Assembly: GCA_937125225.1 (NCBI GenBank)
Contig: CAKZLE010000014.1
Span: 1 to 64,000 of the forward strand
Length of the DNA stretch: 64,000 bases
From: an uncultured Spirochaetia bacterium
Lineage (GTDB): Bacteria; Spirochaetota; Spirochaetia; CAKZLE01
Direction: 5' to 3'
A program made the position numbers and the translations under genes. Below are positions 29,991-54,944 of this stretch, in pieces (position 1 is the stretch's first letter; the number at the start of each line of letters is the position of its first letter). Below the pieces are notes generated by a model. That model was not told the DNA's origin and did no database searches. It saw only the letters and a list, made by a program, of their open reading frames with translations.

Positions 29991-30988
29991 TATCCGAGCA
30001 GGTCCTTGTACTTCCGGTAGAGCCCCCGAAACTGATCATAGGTCAGACTAAGCAGTTGTGCTGCTCGTCTCTGATTCTGACTTGCACGAAACAGAGCCTT
30101 CCTGATGAATACTATATCCAACTGCTCTTTCATACGCTGATACTCTTCAAGTTCAACCCTCGAGAAGAGGTCCCCCTGGTCATCTGATTCGGGTCGGTTA
30201 CTCTTGAAGGGATTCTTGAAGGGATCTAATACCAGCTCAGTAACTCTATCCTCCTCAGTCCTGTAGACCGCTCTCTCGATAGTGTTCTTCAACTCCCTTA
30301 TATTACCAGGCCAATGGTAGGAGAGCATCTTATCTACGATCTCGTCAGAGAAACTCGGATCTTGCTCCTTCCCGCATTCGAAGGCCATCTTAGCGGCGAA
30401 GTAACTAGCGAGAAGCAGGATATCATCACCTCTATCACGTAGTGGAGGGATGAACAGGACTTCAAACGAAAGTCGATCAAGCAGATCCTGTTTGAACTTA
30501 CCCTCCTTACAGAGAGCTGGCAGATCTGCATTAGTCGCTCCGATTATCCTGACATCGACCTCAATCGTCTTTGAGGAACCCACTCGTTCGAATGATCCAT
30601 ACTCGACGACTCTCAGAATCTTCTCCTGAACCTCTAAGGGGATCAGACCGATCTCATCTAGAAAGAGAGTCCCGGTATTGGCCTCTTCGAATCTACCCTT
30701 CCTCGTTTTGATCGCCCCAGTATAGGCACCAGCCTCATGCCCAAAGAGTTCTGTCTCAATAAGACTCTGAGGCAGGGCAGCACAATTGATCGCCACAAAG
30801 GGATTCTGCCATCTTGGTGATAGATAGTGAAGGCGGGAGGCTGCAAGTTCCTTACCGCTTCCCCTCTCTCCGATAACGAGTACGGATCTGTCTACTTTTG
30901 CAGCTAAGCTCAACTCCTGTTGGAAATTGATGAAAGCCTCTGACTCACCTAGAGGAGTCTCTCTTTTTAATTCTTCTATTCTAACCAT
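29990..30988 (-). CDS. pspF: PspF-like sigma-54-dependent activator
   Basis: A 332-residue bacterial enhancer-binding protein without a receiver domain: AAA+ domain from the start, with Walker A GERGSGKE (40-47), the sigma-54 contact loop as GAYTGA (87-92; usual GAFTGA), Walker B LFLDEI (108-113), and a C-terminal Fis-type HTH (about 300-330). This short plan is that of PspF, which drives psp transcription and is held off by PspA. It lies between two psp operons with sigma-54 promoters. One candidate operator palindrome (30987-31003) covers its own -10 region and start codon, suggesting autorepression. No clear ribosome site at normal spacing. Confidence 0.9.
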   Translation of the reverse strand: MVRIEELKRETPLGESEAFINFQQELSLAAKVDRSVLVIGERGSGKELAASRLHYLSPRWQNPFVAINCAALPQSLIETELFGHEAGAYTGAIKTRKGRFEEANTGTLFLDEIGLIPLEVQEKILRVVEYGSFERVGSSKTIEVDVRIIGATNADLPALCKEGKFKQDLLDRLSFEVLFIPPLRDRGDDILLLASYFAAKMAFECGKEQDPSFSDEIVDKMLSYHWPGNIRELKNTIERAVYRTEEDRVTELVLDPFKNPFKSNRPESDDQGDLFSRVELEEYQRMKEQLDIVFIRKALFRASQNQRRAAQLLSLTYDQFRGLYRKYKDLLG

Positions 30989-31023
30989 GGTGTATCATAC
31001 CACCTCGTGGTAGTATTTACCAT
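30987..31023. promoter_or_regulatory. Two tandem palindromes, candidate PspF enhancer sites of psp operon 2
   Basis: ATGGTG-TATCA-TACCAC (30987-31003) and GTGGTA-GTATT-TACCAT (31007-31023), centres 20 nt apart and about 89 and 69 nt upstream of the GG of the sigma-54 promoter. Same form as the pair upstream of operon 1. The first covers the start codon and -10 (ATCATA, 30994-30999 on the plus strand) of pspF. A partial third copy (GTGGTATCATAAACC) starts at 31036. Confidence 0.65.
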
Positions 31024-31082
31024 AAGAAGTAGCTTGTGGTATCATAAACCTTCATACAATGAGCTGAAACGCAACAGAGAAT

Positions 31083-31098
31083 TGGCACGATAGTTGCT
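31083..31098 (+). promoter_or_regulatory. Sigma-54 promoter of psp operon 2
   Basis: TGGCACGATAGTTGCT, with GG at 31084-31085 and GC at 31096-31097, 10 nt apart: a full match to TGGCACG-N4-TTGCW. Confidence 0.92.
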
Positions 31099-31149
31099 TT
31101 ATAACTTGCATAAGTGCAAAAAGCATACTACCCTTTCTAGGAGGAATAT

Positions 31150-31815
31150 ATGGGAGTTTTTACAAGATTCAAAGATATTATTAATGCGAACATCAACTCG
31201 ATGTTGGACAAAGCAGAGAATCCAGAGAAGATGATTCGTCTTATGATGCAGGAGATGGAAGATACTCTTATAGATTTAAAATCATCCTGTGCAGCAAAGA
31301 TGGCTGCCAAGACTAAGACTGAAAGAGAACTCAAAGAGCTCACAGCTCGAGTGAATAGATGGCAGAAACGTGCAGAATTAGCAATAAACAAGAATCGAGA
31401 CGATCTTGCAAGAGAGGCTCTCCTTGAGAAGAAACGAGCTGAAACAGATACGACAGGTCTTCAAGATGATCTCACACAATATGTTAAACTCATCGAAGAG
31501 TGTAAAGCTAACATCATAGAGCTCGAAGAGAAGTTACAGAGTGTTCGTCAAAAGCATAAGATTCTCGTACAGAGATCTCTTCATGCGCAGGACCAGAAGA
31601 AGGCTAAAGATAATATCAAGAAAGCGAACGGGGAAGATGCATACAAAAGATTCTCTGAGCTAGAAGGTAAGATCGAACGAATGGAAGCTGAGGCAGAGAT
31701 GTCAGACTTCGGTCAATCAGGATCCCTGGAAGATGAGTTCTCTCAGTTAGAGAATACTGATGATATCGAAGATGAACTCAATCAGTTAAAAAAGAAGATA
31801 ACGAAAGAAAAGTAG
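31150..31815 (+). CDS. pspA: Phage shock protein A family (PspA/IM30), copy 2
   Basis: A 221-residue PspA paralogue (MGVFTRFKDIINANIN, then DKAENPEKMIRLMMQEMED), coiled coil throughout, acting at the inner membrane face. AGGAGGAATAT precedes the ATG, a much stronger ribosome site than copy 1. It shares the first 50 residues closely with copy 1 and diverges most in the last 40. The presence of two pspA genes around one pspF suggests subfunctions, e.g. a PspF-inhibiting form and a membrane-scaffold form (inference). Confidence 0.93.
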   Translation: MGVFTRFKDIINANINSMLDKAENPEKMIRLMMQEMEDTLIDLKSSCAAKMAAKTKTERELKELTARVNRWQKRAELAINKNRDDLAREALLEKKRAETDTTGLQDDLTQYVKLIEECKANIIELEEKLQSVRQKHKILVQRSLHAQDQKKAKDNIKKANGEDAYKRFSELEGKIERMEAEAEMSDFGQSGSLEDEFSQLENTDDIEDELNQLKKKITKEK

Positions 31816-54079: not shown

Positions 54080-54180
54080 GAATAGCGGGTATTTTTTTCA
54101 CAGTAAGACCCACTCCTGTCAGAGTTGCACATTAAGCCTAGGTAAAACCCTGAATAAGAGTCATCACGAGCAGGAAAAGT

Positions 54181-54196
54181 TGGCACGGGGTTTGCT
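54181..54196 (+). promoter_or_regulatory. Sigma-54 promoter of a candidate small RNA
   Basis: TGGCACGGGGTTTGCT, with GG at 54182-54183 and GC at 54194-54195, 10 nt apart: a full match to TGGCACG-N4-TTGCW and of the same quality as the two psp promoters. No RTGGTN-N5-TACCAY palindrome is seen in the 120 nt upstream, so its activator may not be PspF. Confidence 0.88.
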
Positions 54197-54206
54197 TTAT
54201 AAATAG

Positions 54207-54310
54207 TACAAAGCAGTTTTATTTTTTTCATAAACTCCTCTATGTTTAGGCGGTTGATTCGAAAACCTCTCTCCCTCCCTCCCCCCTCTTCGAATCAACC
54301 GTCACTTTTT
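54207..54310 (+). ncRNA. Candidate sigma-54-dependent small RNA with C/U-rich loop
   Basis: From the expected start (about 54207) to the terminator U-run (54306-54310) is about 104 nt with no plausible ORF. The 3' half is a stem of 13 perfect pairs, CGGTTGATTCGAA (54251-54263) with TTCGAATCAACCG (54289-54301), extended by G-U and G-C pairs below (54250/54302 and 54249/54303). Its 25-nt loop (54264-54288) is A-A then only C and U, with core CTCCCTCCCTCCCCCC, complementary to GGAGG-type ribosome sites. The hairpin doubles as intrinsic terminator. It ends about 20 nt before the -10 box of rlmE. Role inferred: stress-induced RNA that could mask ribosome sites or titrate a protein that binds C-rich RNA. 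Confidence 0.62.
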
Positions 54311-54341
54311 ATATTCTACTAAATCGTGCTATACTCTCCCT

Positions 54342-54944
54342 ATGGGAAAAAACAGAGAACAAGCAGATCATTATACGAAGAAAGCAAAAAAAGAGGGATA
54401 CCCCGCTCGCTCGGTCTACAAGCTCGAAGAGATACAACAAAAATTTCATATGATTAAACCTGGAGATAAGGTCCTGGATATTGGGGCGGCTCCTGGGAGC
54501 TGGACTCTTTATACCCACAGGAAACTGATCAAGGGGACAGGCTCAATCGTATCAGTGGACTTGAAGCCTCTTGAACTCAATCCATTACCTCCAACGGTAA
54601 CACCGTTGATCGGTGATGCTTTCAGTGAGGAGAACCTGAAAGTCATGACAGAACTTGGACCATATGACTGTATCATCAGTGATGCCGCTCCTGCGACCAC
54701 AGGGATCCGTTCAGTCGATACGATGAAGTCTCAGGGACTTGCAGAGTCTGTCGTCTATGTAGCACAATCACAGCTTAAGACTCATGGGAATCTGGTAATC
54801 AAGATCTTTCAGGGGGGTGGGGAGCAGGAGGTCATCAAGAATATGAGGACTATTTTCGCAAAGGTCAAGCCCCTCAAACCCAAAGCCTGTCGTAACGAAT
54901 CATTCGAGTTATTCCTTGTAGGTCTAGATAAGTTGGAGAGCTGA
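54342..54944 (+). CDS. rlmE: 23S rRNA (uridine-2552-2'-O)-methyltransferase
   Basis: A 200-residue RrmJ/FtsJ-family enzyme methylating U2552 of 23S rRNA late in 50S assembly. SAM motif LDIGAAPGSWT, D of the K-D-K-E tetrad in SDAAPATTG, K in NLVIKIFQGG and E in NESFELFLV; the first K is in YPARSVYKL. It has no ribosome site; TATACT (54330-54335) lies 6 nt before the ATG. It starts 32 nt after the end of the candidate small RNA; the pncA gene follows after 1 nt. Confidence 0.93.
   Translation: MGKNREQADHYTKKAKKEGYPARSVYKLEEIQQKFHMIKPGDKVLDIGAAPGSWTLYTHRKLIKGTGSIVSVDLKPLELNPLPPTVTPLIGDAFSEENLKVMTELGPYDCIISDAAPATTGIRSVDTMKSQGLAESVVYVAQSQLKTHGNLVIKIFQGGGEQEVIKNMRTIFAKVKPLKPKACRNESFELFLVGLDKLES

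Follow-up and report, generated by a model that had tools for sequence, protein, structure and literature searches.

The window analysed here, a 64-kb stretch of DNA (64,000 nucleotides) from an uncultured Spirochaetia bacterium, harbors a -24/-12 promoter, a predicted small RNA and the gene rlmE in close succession on the forward strand (Table 1). Inspection of the sequence shows the promoter TTGGCACGGGGTTTGCT at 54180-54196 (+) to be a full match to the consensus, as an earlier note on this DNA had claimed, and the start of the RNA, deduced from the promoter spacing, lies about 11 nt 3' of it. The same note had described the promoter as facing no protein gene, which is not the case: rlmE begins 145 nt downstream, though with a -10 box of its own. 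A single copy of the RNA was found in the genome of the window. Its most conserved part is the 5' half, which is absent from the earlier note.

Table 1. Features of the small-RNA locus and its surroundings, in window coordinates.
Feature	Position	Strand	Remarks
Candidate enhancer half-site 1 (..TTTTTCACA)	54086..54102	+	-121 from RNA start; right half of the palindrome, score 9/14, weak alone
Candidate enhancer half-site 2 (..GTTGCACA)	54115..54131	+	-92 from RNA start; score 10/14
Palindromic candidate enhancer element, also written TGTGCAAAATTTGCACA			
Predicted small RNA	54207..54310	+	~104 nt (about 105); covariance-model match 54207-54309
5' box ACAAAGCAG	54208..54216	+	family consensus ACAGAGCAACAG; near-invariant AGCA in alignments; complements CUG UUG CUC-type leucine codons
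5' block, also written UUUUUCAU-ACCUCC			
U-run, CAU and anti-SD segment	54222..54240	+	antisense to SD-AUG-AAA-AAA; UUUUUCAUA and CUCC invariant; from pairing and shuffle tests
Hairpin 1, UAAAC(UCCUCUAU)GUUUA	54231..54248	+	anti-SD in the 8-nt loop; from the fold
Terminator hairpin	54249..54303	+	C/U-rich loop 54264-54288
Intrinsic-terminator U-run	54306..54310	+	from sequence; longer in most relatives
Extended -10 box of rlmE (TGCTATACT)	54330..54335	+	6 nt 5' of ATG
rlmE (FtsJ)	54342..54944	+	PF01728, E 1.8e-41; conserved neighbour, outside the RNA

The terminator stem comprises 15 pairs, one of them G-U, and is formed by the arms 54249-54263 and 54289-54303. The earlier description of a stem with a C/U-only loop and a U-run is correct as to the 15-bp hairpin and has to be amended as to the rest, since the 25-nt loop opens with AA and comprises 23 nt of C/U, and the U-run (54306-54310) is short. 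The folding energy of 54205-54330 amounts to -26.3 kcal/mol as compared to -11.1 ± 2.5 kcal/mol for dinucleotide shuffles (z -6.2, 0/200). The 64-kb window holds three inverted repeats of the kind that forms the 13-bp perfect core of the stem (arms of 13, loop of at most 40), this core included, and 54266-54291 is the sole C/U run of at least 22 nt.

In the whole genome (3.43 Mb) the TGGCAYRNNNNTTGCW pattern has just 8 matches, with one for the reversed control. The other sites precede pspA, a type III glutamine synthetase, a nucleobase permease, two sigma factors and, at a greater distance, two ABC/BMP-type binding-protein genes; these identities were read from the sequence, except for PspA (PF04012 match). 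RpoN itself is encoded in the genome (G000:C34, E 1.2e-54). As rpoN is near-universal in the class (381 of 395 genomes), its co-occurrence with the RNA is uninformative as a test. The two RNA-polymerase sigma-factor genes (L097, L099) follow immediately 3' of near-consensus sigma-54 promoters, which suggests a sigma cascade. At a further site of the same genome (L093, G000:C9:15325) the sigma-54 promoter is followed by the hairpin AAUCUAU-ACCUCCUGUUAGGAAAG-AUAGAUU with CCUCCU in its loop and then by an ABC binding-protein gene, and this hairpin may form a leader that acts on the SD it carries itself.

Alignment of the regions upstream of the first RNA copy in Sphaerochaeta depicts two palindromes, TGTGCAA-N3-TTGCACA, 29 bp apart. 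When the regions preceding the relatives were scanned for the consensus TGTGMAA-N3-TTKCACA, 66 of 87 reached a score of at least 11/14, versus 4 of 87 shuffled ones. The two half-sites in the window are weak, yet they are spaced by 29 bp as in Sphaerochaeta. The paired palindromes look like sites for an enhancer-binding protein, seven clear representatives of which are encoded in the window's genome, and their conservation provides a handle for finding the activator of the sRNA. Elsewhere in the window (30467-31812) an enhancer-binding protein gene is located divergently from pspA, the sigma-54 promoter of which lies at 31083; the position of this gene suggests that it encodes PspF. As an activator of the sRNA PspF is not favoured, since the sRNA palindrome was not seen upstream of pspA.

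At the DNA level, a search retrieved the promoter and the 5' part of the locus beside rlmE in genome G008, and the pattern of promoter plus TTTCATA-N-TCC is present in 29 of the 395 genomes of the class, while the reversed pattern is present in none. The matches fold to the same plan with terminator stems that are wholly different in sequence. A minority of pattern matches in a GTDB scan came from outside the spirochaetes; these lack the AGCAAC box and any model match and were taken as chance. The first covariance model was built from three relatives with the promoters left out. With the promoter-free model the RNA is found in 75 of the 395 genomes, nearly all of them from one family, Sphaerochaetaceae, including Sphaerochaeta halotolerans and Sphaerochaeta sp. 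Phil3, and the relatives carry 1-4 tandem copies per genome (four in G256). Such tandem arrangements are common, and S. halotolerans (L166) has the array as well. The window's own family, which also holds the Spirochaetia MAG Tobar13m-G40 (G001), is separate from Sphaerochaetaceae. The window copy is divergent: 54207-54309 scores 45.1 bits with a covariance model that has the window among its 65 training sequences, and the same region scores 27.5 bits with a model from whose training set the window was absent.

Of the 81 distinct matches, all but one weak spurious match (80 of 81) have a -24/-12 promoter 11-18 nt 5' of the AGAGCAA box. Because the model contained no promoter, this constitutes largely independent evidence, where some of the 81 loci came from the promoter pattern and the tandem copies and many of the promoter-free-model loci did not. 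The sigma-54-driven sRNA that had been claimed for this locus is thereby upheld as a prediction.

For the terminator a model-guided alignment was employed, as plain MAFFT misaligned the stems. Among 65 distinct sequences 94.6% of the cells pair in this alignment; the fit to the model flatters such pair counts, but the controls score well below the alignment (covariation score 0.60 versus 0.16 for shuffles and at most 0.12 for slid partners). The terminator shows compensatory changes in 12 of 12 pairs with 98.5% paired, which is the outcome of the covariation search proposed for this hairpin. Hairpin 1, in relatives CAUAC(CUCCUUUA)GUGUG, is paired in 86% of the cells, with double changes in 5 of 6 pairs. 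Stem and -24/-12 elements, on whose conservation in relatives the earlier note had staked its prediction, are thus both kept. In genus g30 (L066 and L067, from G049 and G029) rlmE is still preceded by the promoter and the 5' part, but no clear terminator with a U-run follows them; these copies are possibly decaying or read-through.

Searches against Rfam 15 with 20 type-1 loci (the RNA described so far), and then with 18 loci of the type-2 RNA described below and 2 of type 1, gave no family above the gathering threshold, so that an identity via Rfam, Qrr and GlmY included, was dismissed. The best matches of the window below threshold are VrrA, with 19.4 of 50 bits, and ZEB2_AS1_3. In open-licence papers no account was found in which Sphaerochaeta-type spirochaetes have an sRNA that depends on sigma-54. 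The locus is a member of a real, new small-RNA family linked to a sigma-54 promoter.

Reverse complementation turns the universal 5' element AGAGCAACAG-U5-8-CAU-ACCUCCUUU into AAAGGAGGU-AUG-AAA-AAA-CUG-UUG-CUC-U. Read in this way, it provides an SD, a start codon and codons that spell MKKLLL, a typical signal-peptide start, in one continuous register, and the matching type of exported-protein start is GGAGG...AUGAAAAAA. Because the U-run varies from 5 to 8, the register to the lysine and leucine codons is loose. The hairpin-1 region contains CCUCC/CUCCU in 65 of 65 relatives.

Pairing was examined in sampled stretches of about 0.4-0.46 Mb from the window's genome (376 genes) and from a Sphaerochaeta genome, G276 (358 genes). 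Genes were called with a simple home-made caller that uses the anti-SD for start choice and favours SD-led starts, and signal-peptide genes were picked by a crude rule. In both genomes none of 200 dinucleotide shuffles equals the 5' block in its pairing with start regions. A preference for signal-peptide genes as strong as the native one is reached by 3 of 200 shuffles in the window's genome, where it is modest, and by 0 of 200 in G276; after correction for SD strength the figures are 7 of 200 and 0 of 200. With the order of the blocks permuted, the SP coefficient ranges from -1.01 to +0.43 in five permutations compared to -1.84/-1.94 for the native order. Among the predicted targets are L201:4960 and L211:17703 in G276 and L231:10472 in the window's genome. 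No single conserved target mRNA emerged from these tests in the sampled stretches of the two genomes.

Three other readings of these elements have to be weighed against an antisense action of the 5' block. The earlier note placed the seed in the C/U-rich terminator loop and had the RNA repress leadered mRNAs globally by anti-SD pairing, with leaderless ones escaping. The loop is indeed complementary to GGAGGG/AGGAGG, CUCUCCC-type loops recur in the families f1 and f17 and in part of Sphaerochaetaceae despite differing stems, and the adjoining rlmE looks leaderless. As a main seed, however, the loop fails: it is C-rich in just 45 of 65 relatives and down to a few nt in the others, and in the target prediction that had been suggested for it 26/30 and 28/30 dinucleotide shuffles pair equally well with start regions. 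Moreover, GGAGGG, thought to precede many genes, is found before only 2-4% of the sampled ones, and the sample does not bear out a general abundance of leaderless genes, with only 40 of 376 sampled genes being without SD-like pairing according to a caller that favours SD-led starts. We therefore regard this reading as unlikely. What holds of it is that C-rich loops with anti-SD potential are present, the best-supported seed being the 5' block with hairpin 1. Equally improbable to us is that the RNA mainly titrates another factor that sees ACCUCCUUU, either as a mimic of the 16S rRNA 3'-end for a protein or as an mRNA sponge. In its favour ACCUCCUUU copies the anti-SD end of 16S rRNA and recurs in two loops of the type-2 RNA, yet titration leaves both the effect of block order and the conserved U-run, CAU and AGCAAC box in antisense register unexplained. 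Finally, the opposite strand of the conserved block might encode the N-terminus of a small secreted protein (AGGAGG-U-AUG-AAA-AAA-CUG...), as an SD and an MKKLLL-like start can be read there in many copies. Neither frame (MKKLLL, MKNCCS, MKKNCC) nor length (8 to 62 codons, about half below 15) is conserved, however, the SD is too close to the ATG at 1 nt, and covariation and terminators lie on the plus strand; this candidate is largely refuted and hardly credible.

A last alternative, that the RNA is no free RNA and instead a 5' leader or attenuator of rlmE, draws on synteny: f1, f3 and f8 share the arrangement rhomboid - (polyprenyl synthetase) - sRNA - rlmE, and in f17 too the RNA is found directly before rlmE. 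Against this, TATACT/TATAGT is kept 6-7 nt before the rlmE ATG in many relatives across several families. From this -10 box we conclude that rlmE is transcribed separately, which argues against the RNA being its leader, and the spacing makes rlmE probably leaderless in the window and in relatives. Furthermore, the RNA is located away from rlmE in several relatives (L160, L175, L173, L144, L181), and Sphaerochaeta has 2-4 tandem terminated copies before the gene. A leader function is thus very unlikely.

A second RNA, denoted type 2, surfaced among the weak matches of the refined covariance model. It shares with the window RNA the AGAGC box, the U-run, CAU, the ACCUCCUUU hairpin and the terminator. 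In contrast to the window RNA it has no sigma-54 promoter and carries a TGTAAC element instead, its anti-SD is located in both loops, and it occurs in far more families. Its own model finds matches in 95 of 198 genomes, with strong ones across many families and weak, putative ones, some of which overlap type-1 loci. The window's genome carries a type-2 copy at G000:C6:53849-53933 (L265, L301), which scores 91.8 bits and lies outside the training set. Across the type-2 loci (L255-L284, L285-L299) both hairpin loops contain ACCUCCUUUU and TGTAAC is conserved about 40 nt upstream, a sequence that resembles the -35 element of ECF-sigma promoters. A gene that looks like glucose-6-phosphate isomerase adjoins type 2 in f1 and f25. 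In family f11 (L273:1029-1110, L275, L276, L280) an RNA-like match is found a few hundred bases from type 2, with a TGTAAC-type upstream element of its own and a C/U-rich loop ending in CUCUCCUUUCC; it is possibly a third type.

The antisense reading of the 5' block is the one we favour. Promoter, structure, covariation, family, motif, register and pairing bias, as computed here, render it fairly probable that the RNA is expressed as a sigma-54-dependent, trans-acting antisense sRNA, often multicopy, which would act independently of Hfq and lower the translation of exported proteins under stress. As to Hfq, no PF17209 match was found in the 97%-complete genome of the window, a situation that can be likened to other C-rich-seed systems. 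RNA polymerase with RpoN would transcribe the RNA, activated by an enhancer-binding protein at the paired upstream palindromes. The predicted product begins with an unpaired 5' block, followed by a small hairpin that has CUCC in its loop and by the intrinsic terminator. In one continuous register, the 5' block together with the hairpin loop is antisense to a ribosome-binding site, a start codon and the codons for two lysines and for leucines, from which it would follow that the RNA pairs over translation starts, most strongly where these belong to exported (signal-peptide) proteins, and keeps ribosomes from binding. In some members the C-rich terminator loop may serve as a secondary docking site. 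To judge from sequence, the RNA probably turns down the synthesis of cell-envelope proteins under stress.

A more far-reaching version is put forward tentatively and is in our estimate rather less likely than not. One generic seed against SD-AUG-Lys-Lys-Leu-Leu would act as a secretome-wide brake under sigma-54 and without Hfq, recognising exported mRNAs as a class via their signal-peptide start codons, and together with the type-2 relative it would make up a pair of anti-initiation RNAs that is present throughout the spirochaetes, with a different stress promoter for each. If the RNA recognises the common signature of SD, AUG, MKK and leucines, a single short RNA could adjust an entire functional class of proteins by way of their signal peptides, and sigma-54 would gain a post-transcriptional arm in Sphaerochaeta-type spirochaetes.

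In its mode of action the RNA may be compared to Qrr, GlmY, alpha-r14/NfeR1 and LhrC, an analogy only, as homology to any of them is not supported by a test here. Qrr of Vibrio and GlmY of enterobacteria (with QseF) are sigma-54-dependent sRNAs with upstream enhancer sites; Qrr is multicopy and needs Hfq. The window RNA family resembles them in its predicted sigma-54 dependence and in the candidate enhancer sites upstream of most relatives, which are weak half-sites in the window, and resembles Qrr also in the multicopy arrangement of relatives. It differs from them in sequence and predicted targets, and from Qrr in that the Hfq that Qrr requires was not found in the window's genome. In RepG of Helicobacter pylori the seed is a C/U-rich terminator loop. 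This small RNA reads a G-rich leader sequence (PMC8295292). Its terminator-loop seed and G-repeat target set it apart from the window RNA, whose loop is not the best-supported seed.

The alpha-r14/NfeR1 or 'cuckoo' RNAs of rhizobia silence mRNAs of periplasmic ABC transporters and are controlled by LsrB/NtrC (PMC10746234). As in the window RNA family, the anti-SD motif is conserved in hairpin loops while the stem sequences diverge (PMC10746234). Different are the phylogenetic group (alphaproteobacteria), the control, which is not by sigma-54, and the presence of CCUCCUCCC three times (PMC10746234); instead of CCUCCUCCC in three hairpins, by which cuckoo RNAs are recognised, the window RNA family has two hairpins, with CUCC(U) in hairpin 1. 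LhrC from Listeria is multicopy and induced by envelope stress, has three redundant CU-rich sites including hairpin and terminator loops, binds over the SD of a surface-protein mRNA and requires no chaperone either to be stable or to bind its targets (PMC4132741). The multicopy arrangement is common to LhrC and the relatives of the window RNA with their 1-4 copies, one having been found in the window's genome itself. LhrC is, however, under LisRK control and not under sigma-54, uses repeated UCCC sites and belongs to an unrelated sequence and phylum, and unlike LhrC the window RNA carries an antisense register that extends across the start codon and the signal-peptide codons.
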